Shown here one piece after another: positions 1,375 through 63,792 of a DNA stretch of 64,000 nt (position 1 is its first letter; each line of letters opens with the position of its first letter). A program made the translations under genes and the position numbers. Under the pieces are notes generated by a model. That model ran no database searches. It saw nothing but the letters and a program-made list of their open reading frames with translations, and was not told the DNA's origin. Location: NCBI GenBank assembly GCA_001972305.1, contig BDDD01003347.1, positions 62,001 through 126,000 of the forward strand, read 5' to 3'. The stretch is from Cephalotus follicularis. Lineage: Eukaryota; Streptophyta; Magnoliopsida; Oxalidales; Cephalotaceae.

Positions 1375-1927
1375 TGTAATGCCCGAGATTTCCCTATGTT
1401 GTAATTTCACAATGTAATGTGTTTTTATTATGGGATTAATAAAGGATGGATTTCGAAGACCTTGATGATGTTTTCCAAACTCTAATAATGTTAATTTTAG
1501 AGTCATAATGTTAAAGGAATGTTAGAAGGGCAAATTGATGAAAACGGCGCTGTTTTGGGGAAAACGCGTCGATGACTTTCGAAACGCATCGATGTCTTTG
1601 GATCTGAGAGACGTATGTAACTGCATGCACATGCACGTCGATGCAGGAGAGGACATCGATGCCCTCATGTAAAAGGGAAAAGACGTCGACGTCTTTGAAG
1701 AAGACGTCGATGCGTAACTTTGAATGTCAGGCACGTTACACTGCTTACCAAATAACGTGCAAGGGGGCACTATCCAGGCATCTTAACATGCAGATCATGA
1801 CGTGTTGAGCATGCAATAGGGTACCCTGAACTGCTAGGACTGAAAGGGCAGAAGTGGGAAGGCATGTGAGAGCATGCATTGGCCTTGGCAGCAAAGGGGA
1901 GACACCTGGTGCGCCATGCAACCAGGT
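1375..1927 (+). mobile_element. C-family LTR fragment, 5' part
   Basis: It starts TGTAATGCCCGAGATTTCC and shares 'tgtaatttcacaat' and 'attaataaa' with the C' LTR start (41588). From about 1540 ('acggcgctgttttggg') it follows C2 (38573) through the array and the 'taacgtgc' and 'gacgtgttga' segments. It breaks off near 1925 where an opposite-strand C LTR takes over. It carries a GTCGAC array at the standard C position, about 190-340 bp from the LTR start. Confidence 0.75.
1568..1711. repeat. GTCGAC array, dialect III (ACGTCGACGT)
   Basis: Core positions 1568, 1588, 1637, 1656, 1685 and 1706, i.e. steps of 20, 49, 19, 29 and 21 bp. The clearest units read GACGTCGACGTC and ACGTCGATGC; several show C-to-T or G-to-A decay of the central CpG. 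Confidence 0.75.
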
Positions 1928-3175
1928 GTGGAAGCATTCATTCATATTGGATTATATAAAATTTAGCATACACAGGCAGCCCATACTATGTGCTTAAGCT
2001 TAATACAGTACATGTTATATAATACATATTGGAAATGTAAATATGACAACGGAGTATGACTTTATTACAGAACAACTTTTAACAACCTTAACAAGAAGGC
2101 TTCAAGAACAGCTTCAGCAGCTTGTCTCCACTTCACTTCGTCAATCTGAAATTGTATGTATTAGCCTTTGTCCTCACTTGGCTAGTTAGGAAGATTGCAT
2201 GACAATGAATATAAAGATGCAATTCATGCATGACAGTTTATATTTTGAAACAGTAATATATTTATATATGCCAATATATAAGCAATCATGCCAAGTGGCT
2301 AAAATCAATCAGTTATCAAGAATACCGCACAAGGGTACAATCAATCAATCCAGTGGTCCAAAGACCAGTAGTGGGTGTCATCTATCGCTACCTTCTAGCC
2401 CCAACGATGCACCACCTAACTACCACCATGCACTCCGATGGTGATAGAAAAGGTAAACAAAACTGTCGACACTTGGCAGGCAGCTAGCAGCCACGATCTG
2501 CATTACAGATAAGTTTGGTGTATAAGCTCCAGCCATCTGCTGGCACCTAGGCTCACTGCTGTAGTCAATGATACACTCCTATCACTAGACCATCGGAAAC
2601 TAGCAGAGACAAACAGTACGGTACAGTATATTAGTATTACAATACATGTATGTATGTAATTTAACAGTAGTTTTCGTTTGAGAAAACATAAACATTTCAG
2701 TAAGTCTCTTTTTGAGAAACAGTAAACATTTCAATAGCAGTGCCTCACATTGGAGGAAAACAGTACAGTAGAAATAGTGGGTTCTCACTTGGAGAAAACA
2801 GTACAGTAACAGTAGGTCTTCTTTTAAAAGCCGTAGTTGAAAACCTTAAAATTGTGCATATAGCACTCAGTATTCAAAATCCTTGAAATCCTTTGAAATC
2901 TCTTTAAGTAGTAGTAATTTTTAGAATTACTTTGATAGATATACAAATATATATAACAGTAGCAATATGAAATTGCATAACAGTACAGCAATAATTCAAG
3001 GATTCAAAAAGTACGATAAGCAGCAATATATGCAATCAAACAGTAGATACAAGGTTGTTCAAATCCTATATTCTGATTACACCAGGCAGAGGTTGATTAT
3101 GGAAATCATCCCCTTTGAAAATTGATGTAATTCCCATGAAATTAACCTAAACAATGCACTGAAGCGTCGACAGTT

Positions 3176-3300
3176 TTGACTTAGGTGTCACTGGTTATAT
3201 ATAAGCGTCGAAAGTGTTCATGTGTTTAAGCGTCGATGCATTGCACTTAAGCGTCGACTATTGGTCCTTAAGCGTCAACGGTTCATAGTAAAGGGTCAGC
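3176..3300. repeat. GTCGAC array, dialect II (AAGCGTCGAC), C position 2
   Basis: Cores at 3176, 3207, 3232, 3253, 3274 and 3295 (steps 31, 25, 21, 21, 21). The units begin AAGCGTCGA. The homologous place in the C LTRs at 41320 and 57936 holds dialect I (CAGTCGACTG) instead. Confidence 0.75.
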
Positions 3301-4033
3301 ACTTTAAGTCTACCGGGCAATTAATAGAAAAGAGCATGCATTTCATCAGTCAATTCAACCCAACCAACAACATATAACCACATATATGTTCAAAATCATG
3401 TCATAGTACGTACCTCACATAGCAATCCCAGAATCAGTTGAGTGATTCTTCTCTTTTATAGCTCAATACTCTTCACTCCAATTCAATCTCCAATTTCCAG
3501 ATTCTAATTCAAGTTTTGTATGATAACAGTAGATATAGAGAATGGAAATAAATATATATACATATGGATTAACTACCATAGCAACACTGGAATCAAATTA
3601 GAAGCTTACCAGTTCAATTAGAGCTTCCAATTTCCACTTGGAACACTCTAATTCCAACAAGCAAAGTTCCAGTTCATTTCAGATTGCTTCCCCTCTTCTC
3701 AAATGTTTTCAACACTCCACTCAGTTCATAAACATAGCTGATATTGAACTTTCAATTCAGTGACTCATCAAGTTCATTAACTCAAGTTTCCAACGTCTTC
3801 CTTACTCTCTCTACTATTTTCTTTCAGTTTTGTTTTCTTTTTTGTTTCTTACAATATTGCAGATTCCATGTGTTGAATCAGCCTCCAGACACTAACACAC
3901 CCTCTTGAGCAGCTGGTGACACGTCCTGAGCGTCCATGACACGTTCTAGGACACCTGCCATGCAAAGAAATCATTCCAACGCCACTGCTTTGTTTTAATT
4001 GACGCGTAGCACACACCTGGCACCGTGCGAAGC

Positions 4034-4150
4034 GTCGACGGTATGCTCTTTGGCATCGACGGTTAGCACGCCATAATTCTGTTCTCATCGAGACGTGTTG
4101 CATACGTACTTATGCTCAAAGCGTCGATGGTATTCCCTTGGCTTCGAAGG
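4034..4150. repeat. GTCGAC array, dialect II, C position 1
   Basis: Cores at 4034 (AGCGTCGACGGT), 4055 (GCATCGACGGTT), 4123 (GCGTCGATGGT) and a decayed one at 4143. The closely placed pairs are 20-21 bp apart. Counting from the LTR start on the minus strand this is the same position as the arrays at 50769 and 59103. Confidence 0.7.
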
Positions 4151-4570: not shown

Positions 4571-6200
4571 TGTAACACCCCCGGACGGCAGGAGTCGTCA
4601 CAGGTCATAATACAGAATCTATCATAACATAACATAACATATCTGAACATAAACATAACTTATCAGCAAAAAATGTGGCGGTCATAGCATAACTGAAAAC
4701 TTAAAAACTTAACAATTTCTGAAAACTTAAACATATTCAAGTTTCAAATTTAAAACATAAGTATCTTATTGTTCATGACCACTAGACATAAAAACACATA
4801 AGAATCACACTCCTAGGGGATCCAAACATAAGGTGGTCATCTCTCGTTCACACATTCCCCCACTGCCCCTGATAACCTGCCGCATGGAAACAAAAACGCG
4901 GCTGAGCAAACCTCAATACGGATAAGGGAATTATAAATAGTAAAGGATAAATTTTAAAAGCAGTAAGATTTCAATAAAATTCATAACAGAAATCTTAAGC
5001 AATTAAAAACAATTAAACATTCGTAAAGTCACATAAATGTGCTTTCATAAAACAGATTTGAAAATCGTTCACAACGTTATCATAACATACATTTCATAGT
5101 CAAATCATCAACTCATTTATACTTCGCTATAAAGAGGTGATCATAACATATTGTAACATATTGTATAAAGTTGGAATCATTTATAAATGTCAAAAACCAA
5201 CTTTATTTTTGAAACATGTCAAAACCATAAAACATTACCAATTTCATAAACGAAGAGGCATAGCATAAAACAAAACTGATTTCAGTTTGATAATCAGATA
5301 GCCAAAGAACGGTAGAAATCCGTACCTTATATGTTCACAAAACTCTTACGAAAAGATTGTTCACTCAACTCCCTTTGAAGCACAACAATCTAAAAGTCAC
5401 CCTAAACCATACATATAATGGTCTAAGAAACATTAGAGACATTAAACAGACTTATAACAGTGTTTAGAAAAGACCCAGATTGATATGGAGAAAAAACGGA
5501 GCAAAACAATTGAAAACAGAACTTTTCTGGGCAAAACAGCTGACTGTTACAGAGCACCAGCCGACTGGGGAAGCTTAGCAGTCGACTAATCACAATGGCC
5601 ATATGAACATAAACCACAATGCAGGCAGTTGACTATCACATAGATCCAGTCGACTACACATCCCAAGAGAGTCGACTGTGTTCATATGGCAGTCGACTAC
5701 TCATCCAATCCAGCCGACTGTCCACAAGAACAGCCGACTGTTATGGACGACAGAATAGCAGAAACTTGACATTCTAATACAGAAACTGGTTCAAATGATT
5801 ACAACATTCAACCAGAGATACAAGGACATAAACATATGACTTTATATAAAATTTACAAAACATAGAAACACACAATTGACATAGGAATAATTGGACAGTG
5901 GCTTAACTTCAAGAGAAAGAAAGAAAAGACATTTAACATGTGTATACATATATGTCCAGATTTCTGTCCATTATCATTTGCAGACCTTAAAACAAGATTA
6001 TGACAAGTCTACGGTGTATAAAACATGCTAACAGTCTTACTAACCCTATGACAGAACATATATATAGGTAGGAAATCAAAGGATACTATGAATACTAGCA
6101 ACAACACCACAAACCAGTGAAACAAATCATTACAGTGGGATTACTAACCTGCAATGATTATCCAGAACACAGAAAACACAGCAAGAATACAGCAAATTCA
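4571..6200 (-). repeat. A1 3' LTR
   Basis: It matches 10938 onward of the 5' LTR: 'cggacg.cgggagtcgtcacagg', repeated 'cataa' runs, 'cgctgagcaaacctca'-type segment, the palindrome array, and 'gcaagaatacagcaaattca' at the inner end. It is about 1.6 kb long. Confidence 0.8.
5537..5740. repeat. GTCGAC array, dialect I (CAGTCGACTG), A1 3' LTR
   Basis: Units start at 5537, 5558, 5579, 5626, 5647, 5669, 5690, 5711 and 5731: steps 21, 21, 47, 21, 22, 21, 21, 20. Each is a 10-bp palindrome or a near match (CAGCCGACTG, CAGTTGACTA), and the ~11-bp spacers share no sequence. This is one of the clearest demonstrations of 21-bp phasing. Confidence 0.9.
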
Positions 6201-12555: not shown

Positions 12556-12713
12556 AAATGGAATTTGGCTAAGTGATGAGAGGGAAAAACTATCTTAAGC
12601 GCCGCTAGTTCGACTTCAAGCATCGGCGCCTGGGTAGTAATGGGCAATGCTTAGACCCCTTCTATCTGCACTTTAAACCAGTGCAACGGTAAATTGGACA
12701 AAGCCCTCACACC

Positions 12714-12926
12714 GGCGACGCTTACGAGAAAGAGTCGATGCTTTGGGCAACAGGCGACGCTCTAATTGAAAACGTCGACGCGTTGAAGTCAAGTGTGTCA
12801 GTTGACCTGGACGAAGACTTAAAGTGGCGACACTATGTAAGAAAGTGTCAGCGCTTTAGTCGAGATAGAAGTGGAGAACTCAGGTCAAGCCCGTGACCGG
12901 CGACGCTTAGGGAGAAAACGTCGACG
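12714..12926. repeat. GTCGAC array, dialect II, E LTR
   Basis: Cores near 12714, 12734, 12753, 12774, 12801, 12826, 12847, 12899 and 12920. Steps are mostly 19-21 bp. Units alternate between GTCGACGC-like and GGCGACGC-like forms. Confidence 0.75.
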
Positions 12927-15725
12927 CTTTGAGCTACAGACAAAATGCAAAATCTAACTTTTTGGCATTTTGTGAGTGAAAATATTTAATTTTGGACATG
13001 TGGCAGGCCAGGGAAGGATGATATGAGATGTTCTCAGATGATCTAACAAGTGTCATCACTTGGATTGGTTGAATTTGAGCACATGGGCTGCCAAGAGAGA
13101 GAGTTGAGTTGTGTGAGAAGGGGAGAAGACTTGCCTCCCAAGTAATCCTTCTATTTAATGGAAAAGAGGGTTGAACTCAGTCATTTTGGCTGAGAAGGAA
13201 AGTCCTCCTGCTGAGAGTGAAGTGAAGAATTCATGGGATAGGAAAAGAGAAAGAAATTCTAAAGCAAAGTAAGGAATTCCTATACCCATTTATGTCAAAG
13301 CTTCCTCTGTTTTGATTCAAAGTTATGTAGCAGATTGTTCTATTGATATATTCCTCAATTATTGATGAATTTTTAAATGGTTGAATGTTATGGAAACTTT
13401 AGTATGTCCTCTTTAACTTTTATGCTTGCACGTTTCAAGATTCTATCTATTTCTTGATGAAAATCAATGTTTTAAATTGCTGTGTGGGTACTGTTTTATT
13501 CCTGGGTTATGCAGCAAATTATTTAAATCATATCCTTCTCTTTTCTTGATGAAAAATTAAATGGTTGGATGTTTTGAAAACCTTAAGATGTCCTCTTTAA
13601 CTGTTATGCTTTATGTATCTAGAAATTCTGTCAAATTCTTGATGAGAATTAATGTTTCATTTTACTGCTCATGCCCTGTTATCATATGGAACCAACCACT
13701 CTAAAAAATTCATAACGGATTCAATTCTCAACCAATTGTTATGATCTTGAGTTTTATGAATTCATAAATATGTCTACTTTAATGTTTATGTTTTAAGTTT
13801 TCACTGAAAAGGCTTATTTCTATATGAATTATCAGTTTTCGCAAAGCTATGCAAAACTGTTTTTTATGAACTTATTTGAGTCAATTACTCAAATGAAGAG
13901 AAAAGTTTATGAATTGTGAAAGAAATGTGATGAAATGATTTTTATGATTGCTTTGAGCTGATCACTCAAAGTAAATAATGAATGAACCACCCTTGGATTA
14001 CGATCCAAGGGGAATGGAGCGAGATGCTCAATGTTAATGGAGCGAGATGCTCACGGACATGCATGTGATGTAAGGATAGTAGTCGGGGAGTGCACAATGC
14101 CCCGGTGAATCGGTGTAAAGGGTTCATTAAGGTTTTTATGACTTCTATGTTTATTAAATGTTCTAGTTATGAGTTTGTAAATAGAAAAGTGATATGCTTT
14201 ACAAAATGTTCTAGTTATATGTATTGACTAGAAAAATGTTATGATGAAATGTGTTTACTATAAAAACACCTTATTGAGCTATTTTGAGGTCATTCCTTTC
14301 AATGTTGTTTTCAAATAAAATGTTTTCAGGAAATGAATGAATGGAGATTACGAGCTTAGAGGAAGCTCTTAAGAAGGAGTTTTTGTGAAAGAAAGGCTAT
14401 GCAACGATGTTTGCATAAATGTTTTGATATGTAATAAGAACAAAGTTTTTCCGCTGTATTATATGTTTATGTAGAAGGATGATCTTGTGTAACGTAGACC
14501 AACGATATTGTTATGACATGTTTATATAAGATGATTATGTGTAAAGTTTGAATTTGAGATTATATATGATGTTGCAAGACATGAGTTTATGATGTAGTGT
14601 ACTTTTAGAAAATAGTACCAAAGGATGTAACGTTTCACACCCAACGTAACGCAACCATTCATCGGAGTTCACTTTGAGCTATTAGCGAGCTCGGGTCGGG
14701 GTCGTTACAGTTACAGAGCACCAGCCGACTGGGGAAGCTTGGCAGTCAACTAATCACAAGGGCCAGCCGACTACACAAACTAAAATGCAGGCAGTCGACA
14801 GTCACATAGATCCAGTCGACTACACAACCCAAGATAGTCTACTGTGTTCATATGGCAGTCGACTACTCATCCAATCCAGCCGACTGTCCACAAGAACAAC
14901 CAACTGTTCTGGATGACAGAACAGTAGAAACTTGACATTCTAATGCAGAAATTGGTTCAAATGATTACAACATTCAACCAGAGACACAAGGACATAGACA
15001 TATGACTTTATATAACATTTAGATAACATAGAAACACATAATTGACATAGGAAGAATTGGACAGTGGCTTAACTTCAAGAGAAAGAAAGAAAATGCATTT
15101 AACATGTGTATACATATATGTCCAGATTTCTATCCATTATCATTTGCAGACCTTAAAACAAGATTATGACAAGTCTATGGTGTATAAAACATGCTAACAG
15201 TCTTACTAACCCCATGAGAGAACATATATATTGGTAGGAAATCAAAGGACACTATGAATACTAGCAACAAAACCACAAACCAGTGAAACAAATCATTACA
15301 GTGGGATTACTAACCTGCAATGATTATCCAGAACACAGAAAACACAGCAAGAATACAGCAAATTCACTGGTCACACGGCTGTGCAAAAAGGAAGCCAAAG
15401 AAAACCAAAAACAAAGAGATACATGACTATGCTTAACAACCTAGAAGAATTTATCCCAAAAGAACTACCAAAGGATTGAAATTACCTCCACAACTTGATA
15501 AAACGATTCCACAGCAGATCAAACAAAGTCCAACAATACAGAATCGGCAGTGGCTTTACAGAAAAGGGAGGTAACATATAAAACGACAATACCTCTCACC
15601 AAAAGGGAAAAGTGGAGACAAAATCTGATCACATATGGAAGAATAGAGGATTTTCAGGGAATTAGAAAGGAAAAAGGGATTGAAACCGTGTGAATTGATG
15701 AGGGAAGGGAGAGAGTTCTGGAGAA

Positions 15726-19193: not shown

Positions 19194-19440
19194 GTCGACG
19201 CTTTATGCTTTCAAAACAAAACCTGTCAACGCTTTCATGTCTTAAACTGAGTAGTCGATGTTTTATACTTATGCTTTCTAAAACTGTCGACGCTTTTATG
19301 AGTTAAACCAAACTCGTCGACGCTTTCATGTCTTAAAATGAGTAGTCGATGTTTTATACTTATGCTTTCTAAAACTGTCGACGCTTTTATGAGTTAAACC
19401 AAAGAGTCGATGCCTTATGCTTTAAAACAAACCGTTGACT
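19194..19440. repeat. GTCGAC array, dialect II, ~30-bp steps, B 5' LTR
   Basis: Cores at 19194, 19225, 19254, 19286, 19316, 19345, 19377, 19406 and 19434: steps 31, 29, 32, 30, 29, 32, 29, 28. Units read GTCGACGCTTT or decayed forms. A ~91-bp segment is duplicated in tandem (three units) relative to the 3' LTR. Confidence 0.85.
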
Positions 19441-22249: not shown

Positions 22250-24420
22250 GACCGATAACAGGAGACTGGTACCAAGGTTTGAGGATATTTTGGTTGTTTA
22301 TGAATTCCCGGACGTGTTTCTGGATTAGTTAACATCCTTACCTCTAGAGAAGGGTTCAAAGTATCTGGTTGATTGCTTCTAGTGGTTTGGTAGGAATTCT
22401 CCTTTGTTTGTCAACCCCACTGTCAGTCAACACGTTGACGCATTGGTTCATAGTGTCGACACCTATGAGTGAAGAGTTGACACCCTGGAGGTGAGCAGTT
22501 GACGCGATGACCATTCTTTCGCGTTTCTGTGCATTAACTAGTGTTACACGTCGACGCCTACAGTGATGACGTCGATGCCTAGAGGATGATGTTGACGCCC
22601 AAATGCCCTGTTTTATATGAAGTTTTTGGTTTTGCTTGGGTTCTATCCTTAAAGGATTACCTAGTCAGGCTAGCACCTAAGGCTACCGAGTAGGACGTTT
22701 CTGAGGCCGCCAAGTTGTCTAGACTTTCTAGGAAAGCCGACTTTGAAAAGGCAACCCCTCTGAAACCCCATGAGATATACTAATGGTGTGACAGTGAGGG
22801 CCATGACATGTGAAGCGAACAGGTCACCGACTGAGATGACCGTGGTAGATCTGTGTGGCACCGAGAGTAAGGGTCGACAAGCCCTTACTACATGACGTAT
22901 ATTGTACAGTTTATGGTATATGGTTATGGCATGGTAAAGATACGGTTATGGATCCGGATTCGCTCAGTTCATGTATTTCCTTGTGACTCATATGTCATGC
23001 TAATGTGAAACCAAAACCCTCATGGAATGTTATGTAAGCTAACACTCCAATGGGAGAATCTATTCATCATGAATGAGTGTGTGAGTCATGCGCTATGAAG
23101 ATAGCCGACCCTATATGACTGCAACCCTCCTAGTGTCGCCGATGGATGAGTTAGAAAGTGATTACAGAGATGGATCCATTTGGATATGTGTTATCATCAA
23201 AAATCTCCAAGTCACGATATGGACCTTGTGCGTGGATCGTAGTGTCATTAAAGGGGATGATCAATTCCTTACTACATTCACAAACTTTATGGAAGGGGTG
23301 TGTAATCCATATATTGACCATATCATCGTAGTCTCCTTCAATGATGTGTTAGTGCATTCCAAGCTTGCGGAATGCCATGGGAAGTGGTTGTACTAAACAC
23401 GGCAGGTCTTGCGAGATCGCCAGTGGTATGCCAATTCAGCAAGTATGGAGTTTTGTTATTGGAGGTAGTTTCCTTGTTCACGTTGACCACAGTGCTGGTT
23501 CGTCTGTGGACCTAAAAAGGATAAAAGTGACAAGGGATTGGATATGGCTGATAAACGTGAAAATAGTCCCCGGTTTCTTAGGCTTAGCGGGTTACTATCA
23601 CCGCTTTGTCGAGGAATTTTTACGGATTACCACACCTTTGACTCGATTGACGCAAAAAGACGGGATGTAAAAGATGACAGTGGTAAAGGGAGCTTCCAGG
23701 AGTTAAAACATCATCTGATATCTGCGACAATCATGGTTTTACCTGAGAGCAATGATGGTTTTGTGGTATATAGCGAAGCCTCAGATAACGGTGCGAATTG
23801 TGTTTTGAGATTGTTAGGGGAATGAGCCCCTATGTCTTAAGGAAAGTTGGAACCTCAGGAGTGAGTTATTCCACTCATGACCTAGAATTTACAGCGTTAG
23901 CTATGCACTACGCCAATGGAGACCTTGTCTACGCGGTACAAAGTAGCGGTTTTCACAGATCACAAGGGTCCGAACATCCTTTCTCTTAGAAGGATTTAAA
24001 TATGAAACACAGAAAGTGGATGGAGCTGCTCAATGGTTACATCTGTCAGATCCAATGTCAACCAGGCGATGCTAATATGCTTGCAGACGCCTTAGGTCGA
24101 TGATTAGTTGGCTTGACAATCTCCTAAGTTCAAGCATGACCATGGTTGATGGATAGAATTGAAAGGCTCAAGGAATGAGTGGTGAATTGGTTAAGGCTGC
24201 ATTACATGATCAAGACGGATTCAAACCAGAATTCTCGATTCGTGGTGATGAGTTGATAAAATCCCACGGCAGAGTTTGTGCCCTTTACAACGAAAAGCCG
24301 AGCTATAGTTACAAGCTTATCGCTCTAGTTTCTCAGTACATCCGGCGATTAGAAAGATGTATCAAGATCTGTAATTCAATTTGGTGGAATGACATGAAGA
24401 GAGAGTAGGTGCTGTTGCCC
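22250..24420 (+). pseudogene. B pol remnants, heavily decayed
   Basis: Traces of a chromovirus pol. A pre-RT segment 'EFPDVF' lies near 22300, an RT palm trace with 'YIDHIIVVSFNDVLVHSK' near 23310-23360, the RT/RNase H linker 'GLAGYYHRFVEEF' near 23580, an RNase H trace 'YSTHDLEFTALA' near 23870, and an integrase zinc-region trace 'WWNDMKRE' near 24390. Between the pre-RT segment and the RT remnants lies a GTCGAC array. Breaks are many; no functional product is expected. Confidence 0.75.
22426..22600. repeat. GTCGAC array inside the B internal region
   Basis: Cores at 22434, 22455, 22476, 22498, 22550, 22571 and 22591 (steps 21, 21, 22, 52, 21, 20). It is dialect II, but with 21-bp steps and not the ~30-bp steps of the B LTRs. 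It lies within the pol region, and is followed by 'gccctgttt', which also borders the B-LTR array at ~35693. Confidence 0.8.
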
Positions 24421-41905: not shown

Positions 41906-42747
41906 GATCGTGCTCTGTTTTATTTGCATGTGACGAGCTCACATGCAGCCACTGATAAAACCGTCTTGCAGGCGCCATCTGATGATAGATGAAACGTGTA
42001 TGCCATGCACATGACTGCTAGAACCTGTAGAAACTGAGGGGAAGGGGTGGAATGACATGTGTGTGTGCATGCAAGTGTTAGAAAGGAGGGTGGCATTTAG
42101 TGCCATGTGAGGGAGCTAGGGGAGAGGGGAAGAGAAAAGTCTCTGCATAAAATGCCACTCCTCACTCCTCTCATCAAGACACTGAAAGACCAAAGAACCA
42201 GAGAAATTGAGAGAGGAAATAGTGAGAAATTGAGAGGATTCTCCATTGGTAAGCTTGGAACTCGGATTGGAACTAGTGGACTATTCTTGGAGCTACTGGG
42301 CTTGGAGTTGGAGCTTCTGGGGAGCTCAAAAAGTCTATGTTGGAACACAAAGAGGTGGACTTACAGATTCCTAACTTGGAATCAAAAGGTAGAGGAAATG
42401 GTAGAGAATTCTATGCATGCATTTTGAATTTAATAGTAATGATATTATAAATGGATGGTGTAGTTGTTTGACAGTGGATTTCTGTGTTGATGTTGTGGTT
42501 ACTGTTAATGAATAACCTGACATGCACACTGAATTTTGGATGGAGTTTTGGATTGGTTTTCATGCAATACCATGTTTGGGTTTCATTTGAATTATAATGA
42601 AAACGAAGAATAATGCATGAATTGAGTTGTGTTTTAGACCAGGATATGAATACTGATTATATTCTTTGATATGAATACGTGTGGAAGGGTTTCAATTGCT
42701 TGTTGAATGGATTTAGAAGTGAATTACTGGCATTGTCCAGCCCAGAA

Positions 42748-42963
42748 CAGCTGACTGTTTAGGTATAACAGTCGACTACTCGATCATCCAGTCGACTGTC
42801 ATGTAAGAACAGTCAACTGTGCATGCGTTTTTGGCCAGAACGGTCGACTGTCGAAGGAAGACAGTCGACTGCTGATTACCCGTGATGAACCAGTCGACTG
42901 TTGGGGAAGAACAATCGACTCTCTCAAGGATCCAGCCGACTGTTATGGAAAAACAACCGACTG
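42748..42963. repeat. GTCGAC array, dialect I, C' 5' LTR position 2
   Basis: Ten units at 42748, 42769, 42789, 42810, 42841, 42862, 42891, 42912, 42933 and 42954: steps 21, 20, 21, 31, 21, 29, 21, 21, 21. This is the longest clean array in the window. Confidence 0.92.
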
Positions 42964-44125
42964 TTATAACAGAAATTGGACCTTTAGAAAAGGTGATAGG
43001 CCTAGGTTAATTACCAACAACCCTAGGTGCATTCAGAGCATATGTTTGCCGTGCATTTGAACTACTACTATACTGTAAATTGATTTTGGTTGATTACTAA
43101 ATGTATTAACCATCTTGGAAAACTTGCATGATTACTATAATCACTTTTGGTAAGAAAATGCATAATTGACAAATATAGACTTATATTTTCAAATGACTGG
43201 GGGAGTATTCCCAAAGACGGAGAAAGTATAATTTTAAGTATTACAACTTATAACATTCTGATAATGAGTAATATATTTTAACAAATATATTTTGATCAAG
43301 TAATCATATTTTGTTGCTTGACTTGTATTGTATTGTGTTTGTAAACTGTTGATTACTTAGCCACTGTGCTAGTAACCAGATGTTGGTTTAGCCGCCGTGC
43401 TAAGAAACATACGGAGGACTTGCTCCAAGCCGTTCGCAAACGGGGATGGGGTAAGAGTGCATGACGTTGGGGCCAGGAGGTGGCCACGGTTATGACGACC
43501 TGCTTGTCTGGTCCCTTTTGGGGACATACTTACTACCCGTTTGATATAGCCTTATGAGGTTATACATGTACTGCGAACATGCATATATTTTTATATACGG
43601 AGATATAATTACTGAGAAAATTACATGTCATACTGCATCACTATGCATTCATTCATGATACGCATTACCTTGACCTTGAACTGTATACATGAACTTTTCT
43701 ACTTAGCCGAGTGAGGACAAAGGCTAACCCCCTACTGTAACAGATTGATGGAGTGGGTTTTGATATGGAGCACACAAGGAGACTTAAGGAGAAGACTAAG
43801 CTATTGTTCTTATTTTTATGTACTGGATTACTGAACAATGATTGTGTAACTGGATTATTGTAACTTGGGCTTATTTTATTTCATACTGTATCATCACGCT
43901 CCGTTTATGGGCGGTCATCGACTGATATTGGGTTTTGTATAAACTCTGTGGGTATCACGTAGTATGGGATGCGTGATTCATATTCAAATTCAGCTTATTT
44001 AATGTCATTGCTTCCGCTATTGAAGGTTTTTGTTTTATGGATTATTGCATAAGCTGATTTATGTTGTGTTGATTGCCTTGCCGTTTTAAATGTTGACCTC
44101 TTGGAAAAAACGGGGTGTGACAATG

Positions 44126-44137
44126 TGGTATCAGAGC
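44126..44137 (+). promoter_or_regulatory. C' primer binding site (initiator-Met tRNA)
   Basis: TGGTATCAGAGC exact, three bases after the LTR end at 44122. Confidence 0.92.
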
Positions 44138-44233
44138 ATATTCCATATATTATTAGTTAGGATACTTTCCTTGGCAATCAATAAATTGATTTCCTAAAGT
44201 CGTGACTAACCGTCATCCTTCTTATAGGAACAA

Positions 44234-47200
44234 ATGGACCGAAGGAGAACACGTGGTAGGGCTAGAGCCGTTGGAGCCAATGCCCCTGAGGAAGCGAATA
44301 TGCCGCAAGGAATGAATGTCCCCTAGGATGATAGGGATCCGATGACCCGGATTGCGGATTATTTCCAGTAACAGATGGCCTTTAATATGGCTACTGCGGA
44401 GGAGATGCGCCAGTACTACGCGCAAGCTCGACCGCAACATGGAGCTCCCGATCACTGCCCGGGAGAGGATAGTAATCAGTTTGGGAGGGACATTGAAAGG
44501 TTTATGAGACAGAATCCATCCAGCTTCCGGGGTGAACTTGACGCTACGCTTGCTGAAAGATGGCTTTAAGACTTAGAGATGATCTTTGAAGTGATGGACT
44601 GTACCGACACACAGAAATTGAAGTTTGCCGTATACCTTCTATGGGGAGAGGCCACTCACTGGTGGAAAATGGTCAAAGCGAGGTGGGAGTCAACTGGACT
44701 CGATGCTACGTGGGAGAGATTCCAGACAGAGTTCCTCGATTCCTACGTACCCAGGATTGAGCAAGAACGGAGGGAGACAGAGCTTCTTGAGTTACGTCAA
44801 GGAGAGATGACTGTGGCCGAATACCAGGCCAGGTTTATGGAGCTAGCCAGACATTCACCTTATCTGGTAGCCGACGAAGTGATTAAGATACGGAGGTTTC
44901 TGAAGGGATTATGACCGGATCTTCGGTCGAGGATTAGGGCTATGGAGCTGGGTACTTTTTCAGAGGTCGCTCAAAAGGCGAGGCTGCTGGATAGCATATC
45001 CAGTGAGGACCGAGCAGAGAGGGCCTGAGCACAACAAAATAAACATAGCTCAACGAGACCAGCTTCTTCAAAATGGCAAGGCAGCGGTTCTCTGACTAAA
45101 TCATCGAAGAACAGATATGGACAGACTGCCACACAGGGTACTCCTAGTCAGGGGAGTAATGCAGGAACTGGAGCTTGTTATCACTGTGGTCGTAAAGTCC
45201 ACTTACAGAAAGATTGCTGAAGGATGAACGAATTGTGTTTGAGGTGTGGGGCATCTGGCCATTCCGTGAGAGATTGCTCGAAGAGTCAGGCTGCAGCACC
45301 TACTAGACCAACTAGTAGCAGCGGGGCTGCAGCGGGGCCTTCACGGCGAAGGGACACCGGCAAGGGCATTGCGAAAGGTAGAGTTTTAACCCTTTCACAG
45401 ACAGAGGTTCCGGAATCTACCTCAGTCATTGGAGGTACACTGTATATTTATGCTTTTTCTGCTAGAGTGTTGATGGACCCTGGAGCATCACATTCTTTTA
45501 TTTCTTCACAATTTGCATCATGTTTAGTTTTAACACCAGACCGTATGCCATACATTTTGGATGTGAGCACACCTGCTGGAGTTTCCATGTATACAGATAC
45601 CGTATATAGGAGTTGTGAGATGTCTATGCCAAGCATTTCCTTGTATGCAGATTTGATAGTATTGCCCATCAGCGACTTTGATGTTATTCTGGGGATGGAT
45701 TGGTTGTCAACACATCATGCTTACATGGACTGCTACAGCAAGACGGTTGATTTTCGACTGCCCGATGGTGCTGTTTTCCAGTTTAAGGGAGACAAGGAGT
45801 TTTCTACACCGATTATATCCTTCATCGGTGCATAGAGGTACCTCGAGAAAGGATGCGAAGGGTATCTTGCTTATGTAATTGACCGGAGAAGGGAGAAGGA
45901 TTGGAGCCTGGATGAGATCCCAGTGGTGTGTGAAGTTCTGCATGTATTTCCTGATGACTTGGGATCCTTGCCACCGAAGAGGAATATGGAGTTTGTTATC
46001 GATCTTACACAAGGTACAGCTCCTATTTTTAAAGCACCGTACAGAATGGCTCCTACAGAATTGAGGGAACTGAAATTGCAGTTACAGGATTTGATCGATG
46101 AGGGTTTTATTCGACCCAGTGTTTCTCCATGGGGTGCACCTGTACTGTTCGTTAAGAAGAAAGATGGGTCGATGAGGCTCTGCATCGACTACGGAATGTT
46201 GAACAAGGAAACTATCAAGACCAAGTATCCTTTACCCCACATCGAGGATTTGTTCGACCAGCTGCAAGGGGCGAGAGTATTCTCGAAGCTCGATTTGAGG
46301 TCCGGATATCACCAGTTGATGGTGAGGGAAGGAGATATTGAGAAGACTGCTTTCCGGACAAGATACGGTCACTACGAGTTCCTTGTGATGCCTTTTGGTG
46401 TCACCAATGCACCGGCTGCATTCATGTCATTAGTGAATGATGTCTTTCGACCGTACCTGGATCAGTTTGTCGTTGTATTTATTGACGACGTACTAGTGTA
46501 CTCAAGGAGTGAGGAGGAGCATGCTTGCCATCTGAGGTTGGTTTTGCAGATTCTCCGAGAGCAGTAGTTGTACGCCAAATTCAGTAAGTGTGAATTTTGG
46601 CTTGACCGTGTGATCTTCCTTGGTCACATTGTATCTGGAGAGGGTTTGGCGGTGGATCCGTCAAAGACAGAGGTAGTACAAGATTGGCCATAGCCAAAGA
46701 ATGTGACGTAGGTATCAGTTTTCTTGGCTTGGCAGGCTATTACAGGAGGTTTATCCAGAACTTTTCAAGGATAGCCGAGCCCTTGACTAGACTGACCCAG
46801 AAGAAGACCTTATTTGTCTGGGATGATGATTGCGAAGCTAATTTCCGCGAACTGAAGGATCGGTTGGTTTCCGCTCCTATCTTGGCATTACCTGAGGGTA
46901 ATGAGGACTTTGCAGTCTATAGTGATGCATCGGGTAAAGGCTTAGGCTGCGTGCTGATACAGCGAGGAAAGGTGATTGCTTATGCTTCCGACTCATGACC
47001 TTGAACTTGTAGCAATCATCTTCGCCCTTCAGAGGTGGAGACACTATCTTTATGGGGCGCAGTTTGAGATCTTTACCGATCATAAGAGTTTGAGGTACCT
47101 ATTTTTTCAGGACACACTGAACATGAGACAGTGCAGGTGGGTAGAGTTCTTTAATGATTATGACTGCAGTATCCAGTACCACCCGGGGAAAGCGAATGTA

Positions 47201-48763
47201 GTCACTGATGCCTTGAGCCGCAAGGCTATGGTTGCCAGTACGATGGTGTCGCAATGGAAGATGTTAGAACACTTCCAAGAATGGTCTCCATTCAACCAGT
47301 CACCGGGGATCTTTCTAGCCGACATGCGAGTACAGTCTGTGTTACTTGATCACATCAGGGGTGCACAACCACATGATCTGGAGTTGCAGCAAATTCAGGA
47401 AAACCTGGATTCGAAATCTTATTTTCGAGTGCATACTGATGGTATTCTGAGATATCGGGGACGCGTGTGTCTTCCGAACGAACCAAGACTGAAGGATGAG
47501 TTACTTCGCGGGGCTCATAAATCCCTGTACAGCATTCATCCTGGTAGCACCAAGATGTACCAAGATACGAAGAAGACTTACTGGTGGCCCGGTATGAAGC
47601 GCAAAATCGTAGAATATGTCGCGAAGTGTTTGACTTGCCAGAGGGTCAAGGCCGAACACCAGAGACCGGCAGGACTGTTGCAATCATTACCTGTGGCAGA
47701 GTGGAAATGGGAACACATCACGATGGACTTTGTTTCTAGATTTCCACTGACTAGGCATTGTCATAATGCAGTGTGGGTTATTGTTGATAGACTCACCAAA
47801 TCAGCACACTTTTTGCCTACACACGTTACTGACTCAGCGAGCAAGTTGGCTCGACTATATGTAAAGGAGATTGTGAGACTGCACGGTGTTCTGGTGAGCA
47901 TCGTTTGTGATAGGGATTCGATCTTCACTTCCAACGTCTGGAAGAGATTCCAGGCAGCATTCGGAACAAGATTGAATCTCAGTACTGCTTTTCACCCTCA
48001 AACAGATGGACAGTCTGAGCGTACCATCCAGACCTTGGAGGATATGCTACGGGCTTGCATTATTGATTTTGCTGGTACTTGGGAGGGTCACATTCCTTTG
48101 ATAGAATTCTATTATAATAACAGCTATCATTCCAGTATCGGCATGGCACCGTTTGAAGCGCTGTATGGGAGAAAGTGCAGATCTCCTGTGTGTTGGGACG
48201 AGGTCGGTGAACGACCATTGCTTGGGTCAGATTTGGTGGAGGAGACTTCGGAGAAAGTCAAGTTCATCAAAGATAAGTTACTAGCAGCACAAAGTCGGCA
48301 AAAGAGCTATGTCGACAGTGTGAAGAGAAGGCCTTTAACCTTCAATGTTGGCGATCACGTGTTTTTGAAGGTATCTCCGTGGAAAGGAGTGCAAATATTC
48401 GGGAAGAAGGGCAAGCTAGCGCCACGCTATATTGGTCCTTTTGAGATTCTGGAGAGGGTTGAGGAGGTAGCATATCAGCTAGCCTTGCCTCCTACCTTAT
48501 CGAGTGTGCATAATGTCTTCCACGTATCAATGCTACGAGGTTATATCCAAGACCCATCACAAGTCTTGGACAATGACTCGGTTATGGTGAGAGATGATCT
48601 TTCCTGCGAGGAGTCGCCTGTGAGAATCTTGGATTGGAAGACGCATGTATTGAGGAACCGAACCATTCCGATGGTAAAGGTTCAGTGGCAATATCATCGG
48701 CTGGATGAAGCCACTTAGGAGCGTGAGGAGGATATCCGAGAACGTTACCCGCACTTGTTCTAG
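44234..48763 (+). pseudogene. C' gag-pol remnants
   Basis: Decayed chromovirus polyprotein region beginning at an ATG about 100 bp after the primer site. Domains in order: gag capsid-type segment with 'ATHWWKMV' (~44650) and 'EYQARFMELARHSPYLV' (~44820); two CCHC knuckles, the second CLRCGASGHSVRDC (~45236-45280); protease region with 'LMDPGASHSFI' (~45470); reverse transcriptase with '[10 protein letters not shown]' (~46170) and FIDD (46478-46489); RNase H with 'YSDASGKGLG' (~46920) and 'TDHKSLRYLF' (~47080); integrase with the zinc region (~47520-47645), core 'TMDFVSRFPL' (~47725) and 'FHPQTDGQSER' (~47995), then 'YGRKCRSPVCWDE' (~48165). A chromodomain-like tail with 'MVKVQW' lies near 48670. 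It is broken in several places. Confidence 0.92.
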
Positions 48764-48770
48764 TTGTTTT

Positions 48771-48808
48771 GAATTTCGAGGATGAAATTCTTTTGAAGGA
48801 GGGGTGGA
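48771..48808 (+). promoter_or_regulatory. C' pre-PPT hairpin and polypurine tract
   Basis: GAATTTCGAGGATGAAATTC (48771-48790, 8-bp stem) is followed by GAAGGAGGGGTGGA (48795-48808), which abuts the 3' LTR. Confidence 0.88.
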
Positions 48809-49868
48809 TGTACATGTATTGTAATTTCACAATGAAAATGTGCTTTATTTGCGGAATTAATAAATGATGGTTTTTCTGAATTTGATCATGTTGATGTTGA
48901 TATTAAGTCGATTATATACTTAGAAGTGCGATCACTTGGTTAATATACGGGAGGCAGTCGACTGGCAAAATAGACCAGCCGACTGGCTGACTGCGTGTGG
49001 AAGAAGTCGATTGGTGGGATGAACCAGCCGACTGGCCAACTGTCGTGACACTTGGCAACAGACTGCCAGGCGAACAGCTGACTGCCAGGGAAAGCCAGCC
49101 GACTGGATTGTGCTCTGTTTTATTTTCATGTGACAAGATCACATGCAGCCACTGATAAAAGCGTCTTGTAGGCACCATCTGATGATAGATGAAACGTGTA
49201 TGCCATGCACATGACTGCTAGAACCTGCAGAAACTGAGGGGAAGGGGTGGAATGACATGTGTGTGTGCATGCAAGTGTTAGAAAGGAGGGTGGCATTTAG
49301 TGCCATGTGAGGGAGCTAGGGGAGACATGCATATATTTTTATATACGGAGATATAATTACTGAGAAAATTACATGTCATACTGCATCACTATGCATTCAT
49401 TCATGATACGCATTACCTTCCTTGAGCTGTATACATGAACTTTTCTACTTAGCCGAGTGAGGACAAAGGCTAACCCCCTGTTGTAACAGATTGATGGAGT
49501 GGGTTTTAATATGGAGCACGCAAGGAGACTTAAGGAGAAGACTAAGCTATTGTTCTTATTTTTATGTACTGGATTTCTGAACAATGATTGTGTAACTGGA
49601 TTATTGTAACTTGGGTTTATTTTATTTCATATTGTATCATCACGCTCCGTTTATGGGCGATCATCGATTGATATTGGGTTTTAGATAAACTCTGCGGGTA
49701 TCACGTAGTATGGGATGCGTGATACATATTCAAATTCAGCTTGTTTAATGTCATTGCTTCTGCTATTGAAGGTTTTTGTTTTATGGATTATTGCATAAGC
49801 TGATTTATGTAGTGTTGATTGCCTTACCGCTTTAAATGTTGACCTCTTGGGAAAAACGGGGTGTGACA
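48809..49868 (+). repeat. C' 3' LTR
   Basis: It matches both ends of the 5' LTR, starts TGTACATGTATTG and ends AACGGGGTGTGACA. Length 1060 bp. Only the position-1 array is present. Confidence 0.9.
48955..49105. repeat. GTCGAC array, dialect I, C' 3' LTR
   Basis: Copy of the array at 41755 with the same spacing. Several units differ between the two by single transitions at the central CpG (for example CAGCCAACTG against CAGCCGACTG), so units decay independently after insertion. Confidence 0.85.
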
Positions 49869-50768: not shown

Positions 50769-50848
50769 CAGTCGACTGTCGTCCTGTGACAGTCGACTGT
50801 CTCTTCCACGAATCAACCAGTTGACTGTTACCCTGTGACAGTCGGCTA
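50769..50848. repeat. GTCGAC array, dialect I, antisense C LTR position 1
   Basis: Units at 50769, 50790, 50818 and 50839 (steps 21, 28, 21). The same four-unit pattern lies at 59103. Confidence 0.88.
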
Positions 50849-54312: not shown

Positions 54313-54515
54313 CAGTCGGCTGCCTATTGGAACAGTTGACTATTTTGCCTTGAGTAGTTGGCTGTCTTGTGAATCTGTTGGTTGTTTTGTCTTGCACAAT
54401 CAACTGGACCCCTGTCATAGTCAACTGGCTGTAGCCTAGTTTGTGTAGTCGTGGCCCTGTTGTATAGTCGACTGCCACCATTTGAACAGTCGACTGGATC
54501 CCTGTAACAGTCAGC
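54313..54515. repeat. GTCGAC array, dialect I, A2 3' LTR
   Basis: Counterpart of the array at 33259, with the same order of spacers ('cctattgga', 'ttttgcctt', 'acccctgtca') and ~21-bp steps; more units show CpG decay. Confidence 0.85.
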
Positions 54516-56727: not shown

Positions 56728-57935
56728 TGTCACACCCCGTTATTTCAATTCCAATTCCATTAAGACAAGCATATATGGTGGCATCAGATATATAAATATA
56801 ATCCAGCATTTTATTCAATATTTCAATTAATCATAAGCGGAAGCATTCAAATATGAACTATAAAATAAACCCATCCGCACACAGCCCATACTACGCGTGG
56901 GTACAAACTGACACAAAATCCTTGTACATAAAAAGGTACAACAATAACTCGGGGTATGAACCGTTCATTACAATACAACACATAAACATAAGATAACAAC
57001 CTTAAATCGTAAAATAGAAGCTCTCCAAGCTTCAGCAGCAATCTCCAAATGTCCTTGCTTAATCTGAAATTGTAGGGGTTAGCCGTTGTCCTCACTTGGC
57101 TAAGTAGGAAGATAATGCATGTTAAGGAATATATGAATGAAACATGTATGATAGTTTATATTTAAAATAACATTTAAATGTGCCAATATATAAGCAATCA
57201 TGCCAAGTGGCCATAGACAATACATATGCAAGAATACCGCACAAGGGTACAATCAATCAATCCAGTGGTTGTCCGAAGACTAGTATTGGGCATCAAGACA
57301 TCGCTAACCCCTAGCCTACATCGAGCCACCTAACTATCACCCCAACTCCGCTGATGATAGGAGGTAAACAGTACAACCGGCATTTAGCGGGCAGTTAACA
57401 ATCAAGCTCTGCATTGCAAGTAGTTTTGGTGTGTACTCTAGCCAACTCCTGGCACATAGGACCACCTCCGTTAGTCAGTGACATCTGCCATCACTCGACT
57501 AATCGACAATATGCATAGACAATCAATTCAATCAGAGCAATTCAATAATAATACTACATAGATAAATAATATGCAATATCAAAGGGTTTTCTTTAGAAAC
57601 ATATAACATTTCAGTGATCGTACATCTCATATGACGAAAACGATATCAATACAGTAGTGGTTTCCATTTTTGGAAACAAAACAGGAGGTGCCTCACATAG
57701 GAGGAAAAATCAGTAGTTCCTTTAAAACAATAGTTTTCATTTTGAAAATGATAGTTAAACCATGAATTGTGCATATAGCACATAGTTCGTTCAAACTTTG
57801 GAAATATGGAACAATATTGTTTATAACAATCACTAGTATATACTAATTAACAGTAGCATATACAGGAACAATAACAAAGACAGTAGCAATTCATTTGGGT
57901 CCAAACAAGACCTATAGCAGAATTTTAACCCAGGA

Positions 57936-58048
57936 CAGTCGGCTGTTCTCAAGAACAGTCGGCTGTTTTGGTTGAGCAGTCGACTGTTTTCTCTTAACAG
58001 TCGACTGGATGCATTGAGCAGTCGACTGTCATGAAGAACAGTGGACTG
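57936..58048. repeat. GTCGAC array, dialect I, antisense C position 2
   Basis: Units at 57936, 57956, 57977, 57998, 58019 and 58039 (steps 20, 21, 21, 21, 20), same as at 41320. Confidence 0.9.
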
Positions 58049-59102
58049 CTTCTGCCCAGAAATGCATGCAGTAGCATGTAGTATGTATTTCAATGTTCAA
58101 TTTCTAACCAATTCAACACATGCAATCATACAGAAAATAAACATACATGATATGCATAATATATCTTCCATAAACATGTCATTACCCTTACCTCAATTGC
58201 TTATCCCAAGGTCAATTGTAATTGATCTTTCTCTTTGAGTTTCCAAGCCTCTTTCACCAATCACCGCTTTAATTCCAGCTGAATATAATCTATACAGTGC
58301 ATGCATGTTTACAGACACGTGCATTAGTACCAGTAGGTTTCAGCAATTCCTCATGATAACTACAACTCCAATAGTAGTTAATCACTAGTTCCTTAAGTCT
58401 TAACTTCCGTTTTTCAACTTCCCTTTTGAACTCTTGGTCAATATATCTTTCAATTTCGGATTCTTTGATCTTAATGTGTTGACAGAAGATGTATATGTGT
58501 ACTTAGGAGAATCAATGTACATTTATTTTGACAACTAACAACATCTATAATCCAAGTTAGAGTTATCAACAATTTCCTTAGCTTCACATCCATTATTTCT
58601 TAATCCCTCTCATTATCATTTCTAATTGTAGCATTATGGACGTAAGATATTAAACATTCCTAGTCACATTCTTGACAGATTACAACATCAGTAGGGAGCT
58701 CGAATTTGAAACTTACCAGGAGATATCCAAAGCTTCCAAGTCTTTCTTTGAGCTCACCAAATCCTCAAATGCAAGCTTTCCCAAATTTTCAGCAATTCTC
58801 CTCAACTTTAGTGTTTTCTAACACTCTCACACAGTCCTAGCAGTTGATATAAAGGCTTAGGAATCTTTGCATTTTGCCATATTACCTTACTCCATTTTCT
58901 CTCATTCCTTCTCTCTCTCACATGCATTCCTTTTTCTCTCTTTTCTCTTCTTTCTATTCTGTCTTTGCAGGTTGCAGAGAACATGCAAGCACTCTATCTT
59001 GCATGCTCTGGCACCTATTGTCACGCATGACACCAGCCCCTCATGCAATACCCCTTGCATTCAGTCTCACAAGCATGCACAGACACCTGTTCTGTACCGA
59101 TC

Positions 59103-59181
59103 CAGTCGACTGTCGTTAGCAGGCAGTCGACTGTCCACACACGCCTCAGACAGTCGACTATTCCCCTGTGACAGTCGGCTG
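59103..59181. repeat. GTCGAC array, dialect I, antisense C position 1
   Basis: Units at 59103, 59124, 59151 and 59172 (steps 21, 27, 21). Confidence 0.88.
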
Positions 59182-59355
59182 TCGATGGCTGTTTAAGGGT
59201 TTCTTAAGTTTGATACTTCACCAATTGTACAATCCATTCATCTCAAGCATTTAACAATCACAGAAATCATTAAAATTGGACAAATAATTCAATTAAAATG
59301 TATATTTTATTTAAAATTGGATCAATATACATTAATTGAATTTGCGGTTATTACA

Positions 59356-59391: not shown

Positions 59392-59399
59392 AGCTCTTA

Positions 59400-62662: not shown

Positions 62663-62789
62663 TGTAATATCCCGTTCTTATGCTTACATGTTTTATGTTG
62701 GGTTTATACCTTTTGATATATGCTATGCTTTTTGAACGCTTGGATTTATTGTTTGAATTTCTTTTATTTTTGTTCTCTGCGCGCAAAGC

Positions 62790-62916
62790 GTCGACGCTCT
62801 TATTAGAATTTCCGACGCTTTGTCTGCTGTGTGGCACGTCGACGCCTAAACGTGTGACTTTGACGCGTTTTGTGTTTAAGCGTTTAAACGTCGACGCTTA
62901 AAGTAAACAGTCGACG
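62790..62916. repeat. GTCGAC array, dialect II, A4 position 1
   Basis: Cores near 62790, 62811, 62838, 62859, 62890 and 62910 (steps 21, 27, 21, 31, 20). The best unit is AAAGCGTCGACGCTCT. Confidence 0.85.
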
Positions 62917-63687
62917 CTTTAGTCGGCTTTCCATATGAGTTTGGACGGTGGGCTGTTTAGGGAAAGAGAAGTTTTTGCCATTTTTGGTTGATCTGATTTT
63001 CCTTCTTTGTTGAAACCGAACCTGCAAGAAAGGAAAACCTATTAGATGCACGATTTACCATTAATTTTTACTCGTTTTTCTGATTTTAAAAGGCTAAGAA
63101 TTATTTTGAAAAAAATTATCTGCACTTTTTACAAACCCGAACAGCAACTTTGGACGCATTTTCCTGCATCGATTTTGACGTTTTCTGAAGGTATTTTCTA
63201 AACGAAAGTTGTAGTTTGTACTATGTAGTTTCTGTATCACCCTTTAATTTGTATTAAAACCGACTATAAATTTATTTAGAGCATGATTTTATAAGCCTAT
63301 TGAAACTAAATTCTGTTGTTATCTTTATATGTTCATTCATGGGTTTCATGCATAACTTGTAATGTTGATCCTTAAAGACAAAGAAATCATGCTATTGACG
63401 TATATACATATATGTATATGCCACTGATTGTAGGATTTATACATAAAAATTCGGATTATAGTGCATGATTTACAAACTGTTCTAAACCAGAATTTTTAAT
63501 TCAAGATTTCCATACCTTTGTTTTACTTTTGATCATGCACTAAGGTAGTATATACTGGCATTTTTAAATTGATGTAACATGTCACAGAGCTTGCATGTTA
63601 ACAATTATGCTTGAGTTTAAGAAAATCGGATGTAGCCATGGATTTGAAACTATTTTCTGTATTGGTATTCTGTGTCTGACGCAAACC

Positions 63688-63792
63688 GTCGACGCTTTGT
63701 ACCGTTTTGTGCTTTGGTCAGTCGACTCTTTGCTCGACGCTTTGTCCTTTTATGCGATGAAACCGTCGACGCTTAAGAATAAACTGTCGACG
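63688..63792. repeat. GTCGAC array, dialect II, A4 position 2
   Basis: Cores at 63688, 63721, 63733, 63765 and 63786. One 21-bp step and two ~32-bp steps; 63721 and 63733 form an irregular pair. Confidence 0.75.

Follow-up and report, generated by a model that had tools for sequence, protein, structure and literature searches.

Two-array long terminal repeats with 21-bp-phased GTCGAC units in nested Ty3/gypsy elements of Cephalotus follicularis

What purpose is served by rows of a short CpG-containing palindrome, repeated every two helical turns, in the long terminal repeats (LTRs) of plant retrotransposons? The question is raised by a stretch of 64,000 nucleotides from Cephalotus follicularis (GenBank assembly GCA_001972305.1, contig BDDD01003347.1, positions 62,001 to 126,000; hereafter the window). 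Plant Ty3/gypsy elements lie within one another in the window, and the arrays of GTCGAC sit in their nested LTRs. The initial annotation described these arrays in LTRs designated A, B, C and E, and in the naming used here they also occupy LTRs D, F and A41, such that the module is common to several LTR families (Table 1). New here is that both arrays of one LTR share the same unit type, of which three exist around an RTCGAC core.

GTCGAC occurs 72 times in the window, whereas the dinucleotide expectation is 6.6 and 100 local dinucleotide shuffles give a mean of 6.0 (standard deviation 2.6, maximum 13). Among the 64 palindromic hexamers, it is the most over-represented (10.9-fold, with the runner-up at 3.7-fold). 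Adjacent exact copies 20-22 bp apart number 15, compared with a mean of 0.01 and a maximum of 1 in the same shuffles; the proposed recurrence at 20-22 bp is thus borne out by both the count and the pair distances. In an unbiased scan of 5-mers and 6-mers by raw pair number per spacing, GTCGA and AGTCGA at 20-22 bp rank first. Over the whole window, GGCGCC (3.7-fold) and ACGCGT (3.2-fold) also exceed their dinucleotide expectations.

Chains were defined as at least three units at steps of 18-34 bp, with one mismatch to GTCGAC allowed. The window harbors 23 of them, with 49 sites at the fourth or a later chain position; 30 Markov controls yielded none at such positions and only 0-2 sites completing a chain of three. 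The estimate of about two dozen arrays needs correcting, as many are mutual copies (5′/3′ LTR pairs or family members) and the array table has 16 entries, or 14 when D1 and D2 are merged. The weaker clusters at 12.7 kb and 22.4 kb are additional to these 16. Arrays are found in all five ranges originally singled out as the best examples (5537-5731, 33259-33456, 42748-42954, 57936-58039, and 39627-39829). When copies are reduced to mostly one for each family, 38 of the 63 steps measure 20-22 bp, and 27 are exactly 21 bp. The phased GTCGAC arrays are confirmed as real. One of the 23 chains, at 40457-40518 in the E LTR, is a plain tandem repeat without GTCGAC, consisting of three copies of a 28-bp repeat with the core GTGGAC, and is unrelated to the GTCGAC units.

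On the basis of what surrounds the core, with units read in the direction of their own LTR, three unit types were set by us after viewing the sequences. The T-type is AA-CAGTCGACTG-TT (50 units). The D-type is AAAGAC-RTCGAC-GYCTTT (17 units), slightly asymmetric, with the core form GAC[A/G]TCGACG[C/T]C. The G-type is GTCGACGCTTT with the flanks AAA-CC-GTCGAC-GCTTTA (28 units) and is clearly asymmetric, its right side being the stronger. All three have in common the RTCGAC core, an A-rich left flank, and a T-rich right flank. The perfect palindrome extends to at least 8 bp at 54 of the 72 GTCGAC sites (18.7 expected), to at least 10 bp at 22 (4.9 expected), and to at least 12 bp at 4; the earlier description of units mostly extended to 10-12 bp was too strong.

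One-mismatch words that stand in phase with an exact unit number 32: 10 are ATCGAC/GTCGAT, 10 are GCCGAC/GTCGGC, and 5 are the CpG-loss variants GTTGAC/GTCAAC. Transitions at positions 1 or 2 that keep RYCGAC on one strand make up 20 of the 32. These phased variants are the unbiased support for RYCGAC, rather than its presence on at least one strand in 115 of 134 counted sites, a count whose pattern admitted only the RYCGAC class and the two CpG-loss words. One-sided variants mostly share polarity within an array. They are in the sense orientation in 8 of 8 cases in the second arrays of D1, D2, and A41 and in 7 of 8 in the E arrays, and antisense in 6 of 6 in the two A arrays (mutual copies), 4 of 4 in B, 4 of 5 in C, and 3 of 3 in E2, contrary to E. 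The first array of the A41 3′ LTR has three sense and one antisense, and D3 is mixed. This shared polarity can mean either a polar site or common descent of the units.

Two recognised arrays are present in six LTRs (A41, E, D1, D2, D3, and F), which represent five lineages because D1 and D2 are one family. The first array starts at LTR offset 127-232 and the second at 1025-1332, where the offsets of D1 and D2 run 2 bp high (their stretches begin 2 bp before the LTR), the LTR starts of D3 and F are taken from the sequence only, and the direction of F is an assumption. A single array was recognised in each of A, B, and C, and the E2 sequence breaks off after its first array. In all six two-array LTRs, both arrays are of the same unit type. 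The flanks that match between the two are CA..T[GA] in A41, D1, and D2, AC..G in E, and ..GC in D3 and F, with a few exceptions in most of these LTRs.

Homologous LTRs can nevertheless differ in unit type. D3 is homologous to D1 over 994 bp at 68% identity (76% over the first 72 bp), and its second array is in register with those of D1 and D2, in an alignment that the cores help to anchor; however, CGCTT flanks replace CTGTT, making D3 G-type where D1 and D2 are T-type. A second case is less clear. The first 100 bp of the E2 LTR match A41 at 76%, yet its units are D-type. As the array part of E2 matches E (66%), E2 may be a mosaic, which weakens the switch between A41 and E2 as a second example.

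A TATA-like sequence is visible by eye near offset 500-615, between both arrays, in A41, E, E2, D1, and D2; it is better on the opposite strand in D1 and D2 and weaker in D3. About 100-140 bp past this region, a splice-donor-like GGTAAG is found by eye in A41 (42248), D1 (58715, minus strand), and D2 (50375, minus strand), which may place the second array within a leader intron. The A41 second array has a stretch (42789-42871) with 68-73% identity over about 84 bp to the first array of D1/D2 (59101-59181), a hint of exchange from one array position to another, or of no more than shared units.

The fate of the cores was followed in LTR comparisons in which the core masks comprise a site in either sequence, the regions are hand-chosen, and the between-insertion pairs share sequences. 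Within insertions (5′ versus 3′ LTR, three pairs), 105 of 119 core positions are conserved, compared with 1248 of 1313 in the rest (p = 0.005), with faster core decay in A41 (p = 0.014) and A (p = 0.011). Between insertions (five pairs), the values are 147 of 164 for the core and 725 of 849 for the rest (p = 0.18). The contrast between the two settings amounts to a log-odds difference of z = 3.2 (p = 0.001). The A41 versus D comparisons (core 24/29 and rest 132/169; core 33/36 and rest 54/71) contain many gaps and were excluded from the pooled test. The statistics suggest that, once an element has inserted, its units decay more quickly than the sequence around them, a difference not seen between insertions. 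Faster decay of the core within insertions is as expected for methylated CpG. We read the contrast as retention of the core while the elements were active, from pairs that overlap and single tests that are weak.

It is hypothesized, with a confidence slightly on the favorable side of even, that each array is a row of sites for a DNA-binding protein of the host, through which LTR transcription is driven. A sequence-specific host protein would recognise the RTCGAC (RYCGAC) core and a few flanking bases. In the six two-array LTRs, one row would lie upstream of the likely TATA region, and the other some 0.8-1.1 kb further down, in the presumed transcribed part. Binding to neighbouring sites, two helical turns (21 bp) apart, would be cooperative and would switch the element promoter on, while the flank types would follow different paralogous proteins. 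We infer these steps from the sites themselves, their 21-bp spacing, their placement in LTRs, the near-chance similarity of T-type spacers, the shared core, and the agreement in type between paired arrays. A protein-binding platform, as originally proposed, remains the best reading, although the dimeric protein of that proposal is dispensable: a symmetric dimer site is not required because the G-type is asymmetric and one-sided variants mostly have the same polarity.

A DREB/CBF-like AP2/ERF protein is one candidate and is not favoured over another factor. It is named because RYCGAC is the CBFHV element of dehydration and cold responses (PMC5281569). The words of that element (GTCGAC, ATCGAC, GCCGAC, and ACCGAC) largely coincide with the phased variants seen here. 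CBFHV is a monomer-type AP2 site, and it leaves the palindromic flanks unexplained. The RCCGAC core of CRT/DRE is not what the arrays carry, as units are mostly GTCGAC, ATCGAC, or GTCGAT and CCGAC is in the minority. Rider, a plant LTR element with dehydration and CBF-type sites, has a CBF site in U3 but no cold response (PMC6762207), and CBF1 and CBF4 of Vitis need a CCGAC core (PMC4196112); on both counts a CBF is no more than a candidate.

Several observations weigh against the binding-site reading. The CBF idea in particular is weakened because grape CBFs need CCGAC and most units read TCGAC. The argument that phasing places every unit on the same helix face applies to the 20-22 bp steps but not to the others, which show no significant helix phasing (n = 20, R = 0.31, p ~0.14), those of 27-33 bp breaking or weakening the phase; strict phasing of whole arrays was dropped. 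The two-array plan does not hold throughout, since A, B, and C have no exact GTCGAC at the offsets of the U3 array. The B pair lacks faster core decay (29/30 versus 327/349), and no between-insertion pair is significant alone (p 0.17-0.61), these pairs sharing sequences. Between insertions, unit flanks are less conserved than the rest (171/216 versus 725/849), so that selection, if any, would be on the core. Finally, the flank switch could also stem from gene conversion or from descent of units within a family, and the alignments that reveal it are anchored by the cores themselves.

A further reading, which we consider unlikely, is that LTR lineages are each tied to their own member of a single DNA-binding protein family, encoded by the host (or by a transposon), and rewrite the 21-bp-phased sites of both arrays when the partner changes. 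The arrays would then record an arms race or a partner switch, as a gypsy counterpart of VANC motif co-evolution.

Alternatively, but with low probability, the transcribed palindromes may fold into RNA hairpins that feed small-RNA silencing, as proposed for the palindromes of Sireviruses, which are hotspots of small-RNA mapping (PMC5311732, PMC10760457). All six T-type arrays tested fold better as RNA than their shuffles (z -3.1 to -6.0), and eight control stretches range from z +0.8 to -2.2. However, one D-type and one G-type array show no unusual folding (z -0.01 and -1.0) despite the shared core and placement; hairpins are thus not a shared property, and their role as a common function was dropped. 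It can also be reasoned that, on the transcript strand, most one-sided variants in the D1, D2, A41, and E arrays would disrupt base pairing to a perfect unit, whereas those in A, B, C, and E2 would mostly permit G-U pairs. Since an element is not expected to be selected for its own silencing, the hairpins may be a mere by-product.

VANC-like anti-silencing, in which a transposon-encoded protein binds the tandem motifs of its own family and strips methylation, with motif and protein changing together, is rather unlikely. It would account for the agreement in unit type between the two arrays of an LTR and for its difference between homologous LTRs. The targets of VANC are short motifs, located in non-coding tandem repeats, and related transposons differ in them (PMC5735166). 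Against it stands the coding capacity of A41. All seven open reading frames (ORFs) of at least 110 aa in its interior were scanned against Pfam; the five on the coding strand are gag-pol, the two antisense ORFs have no match above the cut-off, and no gene beyond gag-pol was recognised among them. Gag or integrase would have to bind the arrays.

The arrays could also be functionless old tandem repeats that grew by 21-bp and 30-bp duplications and whose spacers then drifted, an explanation that we regard as improbable. The relevant evidence lies in the spacers, which were compared against a null built from shuffled spacers, with the second array of E excluded. Units of T-type arrays match pairwise at 0.79-0.91, whereas their spacers match at 0.31-0.45 (nulls 0.28-0.33). 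In the A arrays, spacer pairs match at 0.31-0.33 (null 0.29-0.33), and in the other T arrays at 0.36-0.45 (null 0.28-0.32), an excess that includes bases just outside the unit. Because these spacers are at or slightly above chance, recent simple tandem duplication is ruled out for the T-type arrays, while ancient duplication is compatible with the data. The earlier claim of unrelated spacers consequently stands for T-type arrays but fails elsewhere: the first array of E is above its null (0.55 versus 0.41), and spacers are related in B (0.55-0.56 versus 0.36-0.37), where the array includes a tandem duplication, and in the B-like array (0.51 versus 0.39). In favor of old repeats are these B arrays, the slight to clear excess over the nulls in every array other than A, the D1 and D2 spacers that can still be aligned with each other, and the common polarity of one-sided variants, which common descent predicts. 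On the other hand, drift would erase CpG cores first, and cores do decay faster after insertion in two of three pairs, yet they persist beside near-chance T-type spacers, and the joint flank change in both arrays is left without explanation.

RNA dimerisation or 5′-3′ pairing, in which self-complementary units would pair genomic RNAs for packaging or template switching, is very improbable: every perfect unit is self-complementary, and LTR order would place U3 units at the transcript 3′ end and second-array units in its 5′ part, but G-type units are asymmetric, variants break RNA pairing in several families, and the known retroviral dimer signals are one or two palindromes, not arrays.

Is such a module already known? 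The initial annotation knew of none in plant LTR elements, which is wrong in kind. In Sirevirus LTRs, palindromic boxes are repeated ahead of the TATA box (Bousios et al. 2010, PMC2829016), and the box of the Vitis Sirevirus element, CGGTCGACCG, contains GTCGAC. These RM boxes, which the arrays here resemble in part, are short palindromes that recur many times within an element and are grouped in the upstream LTR ahead of the TATA box, each element having its own sequence around a common CpG-containing core. They differ in belonging to Ty1/copia rather than Ty3/gypsy elements, in having a CGG-CCG core (Tnd-1 excepted) instead of RTCGAC, and in placing their second cluster near env rather than inside the LTR. 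The section of PMC2829016 on RM boxes gives no 21-bp step, and none of the 72 GTCGAC sites reads CGGTCGACCG. Sireviruses have at least eight copies in the upper LTR half, upstream of the TATA box. The A41 5′ LTR reaches that number (4 + 9), with its second cluster straddling the middle of the 2535 bp and lying downstream of the TATA-like sequence. Among the titles listed by a literature search, no gypsy or 21-bp-step version of palindrome boxes turned up.

The VANC motifs of VANDAL DNA transposons (YAGTATTAY or AGTTGTCC/AGTTGTAC) form arrays that are reported to arise by tandem repeat formation (PMC5735166). As here, they are arrays of short motifs outside coding sequence, and they vary from one transposon to its relatives; such family-specific arrays are also a feature of the present LTRs. 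VANDALs are, however, DNA transposons that encode VANC, whereas A41 has no recognised extra protein. RM boxes are the closest known kind and VANC arrays the closest model for family-specific motif change; on the features compared, the arrays belong to neither group, yet plausibly work like them. Stress elements in plant LTRs, such as those of Rider and the heat elements of ONSEN, resemble the arrays in their proposed role as host transcription-factor sites, although the passages on these elements in PMC6762207 describe no phased homotypic array.

Outside plants, viral contigs contain 0 matches to the exact pair pattern (GTCGAC at 20-22 bp), and bacterial genome contigs contain 9 loci; GTCGAC was counted in each of the nine, and six were examined as sequence. 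They were rejected as relatives: two with at least four units have near-identical spacers (tandem copies), and the other four have two units. The former, with six units in Pengzhenrongella (L002:2930-3045) and four in a Myxococcales metagenome-assembled genome (L009:4537-4605) at 21-22 bp, look operator-like. A protein search with an ORF spanning an array gave no match.

If the arrays are binding platforms, they offer a direct handle on the activation of abundant plant gypsy elements and extend palindrome-box regulation beyond the copia Sireviruses. Since homologous LTRs differ in unit type in both arrays together, co-evolution of transposon cis-elements and a DNA-binding protein becomes open to testing.

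Copies of A, B, C, and D were recognised by self-comparison of the window. Long reading frames with Pfam matches lie on the minus strand in element A and on the plus strand in A41, and include the RVP_2 protease, RVT_1, RNase H, parts of integrase, and the Tf2-1 SH3 domain. Both elements encode Ty3/gypsy-type proteins (RVP_2 and SH3_Tf2-1), with Ty3_capsid in A41 and Chromo in A. The chromodomain is above the cut-off in A and sub-threshold near D1, and none was found in A41 by the Pfam scan of long reading frames. In each of two pol searches, among the best 120 of 8000 proteins, all species-named relatives are plants and many entries are unnamed; the highest local identity among the matches listed is 85% over 63% of the query. 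In viral contigs, searching with a pol protein led to no confirmed locus. About 1.45 kb of the 5′ LTR, with the TATA-like box and the second array in it, is absent from the A41 3′ LTR (48811-49868).

Table 1. Arrays and elements in the window (TSD, target-site duplication; RT, reverse transcriptase).
Feature	Positions	Strand	Remarks
A41 first (U3) array, T-type CAGTCGACTG	41757..41903	+	4 units; LTR offset 170-311
A41 second array, T-type	42771..42961	+	9 units; offset 1184-1369; steps 20,21,31,21,29,21,21,21
TATA-like box between A41 arrays, CATAAAATG	42140..42152	+	by eye
A41 3′ LTR U3 array	48957..49103	+	steps 21,28,21,71
E first (U3) array, D-type	38739..38883	+	
E second array, D-type	39648..39834	+	
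E2 first array, D-type	1568..1711	+	LTR start 1375
D1 first (U3) array, T-type	59105..59179	-	steps 21,27,21
D1 second array, T-type	57938..58046	-	steps 20,21,21,21,20
D2 first (U3) array, T-type	50771..50846	-	steps 21,28,21
D2 second array, T-type	41322..41430	-	
D3 first array, G-type	4034..4128	-	LTR start 4359 by sequence; LTR homologous to D1/D2
D3 second array, G-type	3166..3279	-	aligned with D1/D2 second array
A element 3′ LTR array, T-type	5560..5738	-	
A element 5′ LTR array, T-type	14724..14884	-	
C LTR array, T-type	33261..33442	+	LTR offset 1139-1315
Second C LTR, part of array	54467..54494	+	two units
B 5′ LTR array, G-type	19194..19439	+	steps 28-32; tandem duplication included
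B 3′ LTR array, G-type	30842..30996	+	
B-like array inside C LTR copy	35708..35864	-	steps 29-31
F first array, G-type	62790..62927	+	LTR start ~62664, direction assumed, both from sequence only
F second array, G-type	63688..63791	+	
Weaker GTCGAC/GTCGAT cluster	12734..12925	.	in solo LTR 12360-14709
Decayed cluster	22410..22596	.	mostly GTTGAC/GTCAAC; between B LTRs
Element A41	41588-49868	+	TSD GCTAT
A41 5′ LTR, 2535 bp	41588..44122	+	TSD and ends; LTR pair 41606-42125/48813-49325, 43577-44122/49325-49868
A41 internal region	44123..48810	+	gag, protease, RT, RNase H, integrase with Tf2-1 SH3; Pfam, ORFs
Solo LTR E, 2611 bp	38573..41183	+	TSD GTGCA
D2 LTR	37407-51020	-	TSD TTTGA; interrupted by E and A41
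D1 LTR, about 2628 bp	56728..59355	-	ends by sequence; match to D2
Solo LTR	12360-14709		TSD GTTAC
B 5′ LTR	17795-21548	+	

The B 3′ LTR is interrupted by a 4468-bp insertion (25582-30049) with TGT...ACA ends and the TSD GTTGA, whose single scanned ORF (112 aa) has no Pfam match. The observed/expected ratio of CpG is 1.24 at 60001-64000 and 0.60-0.96 in the rest of the window.

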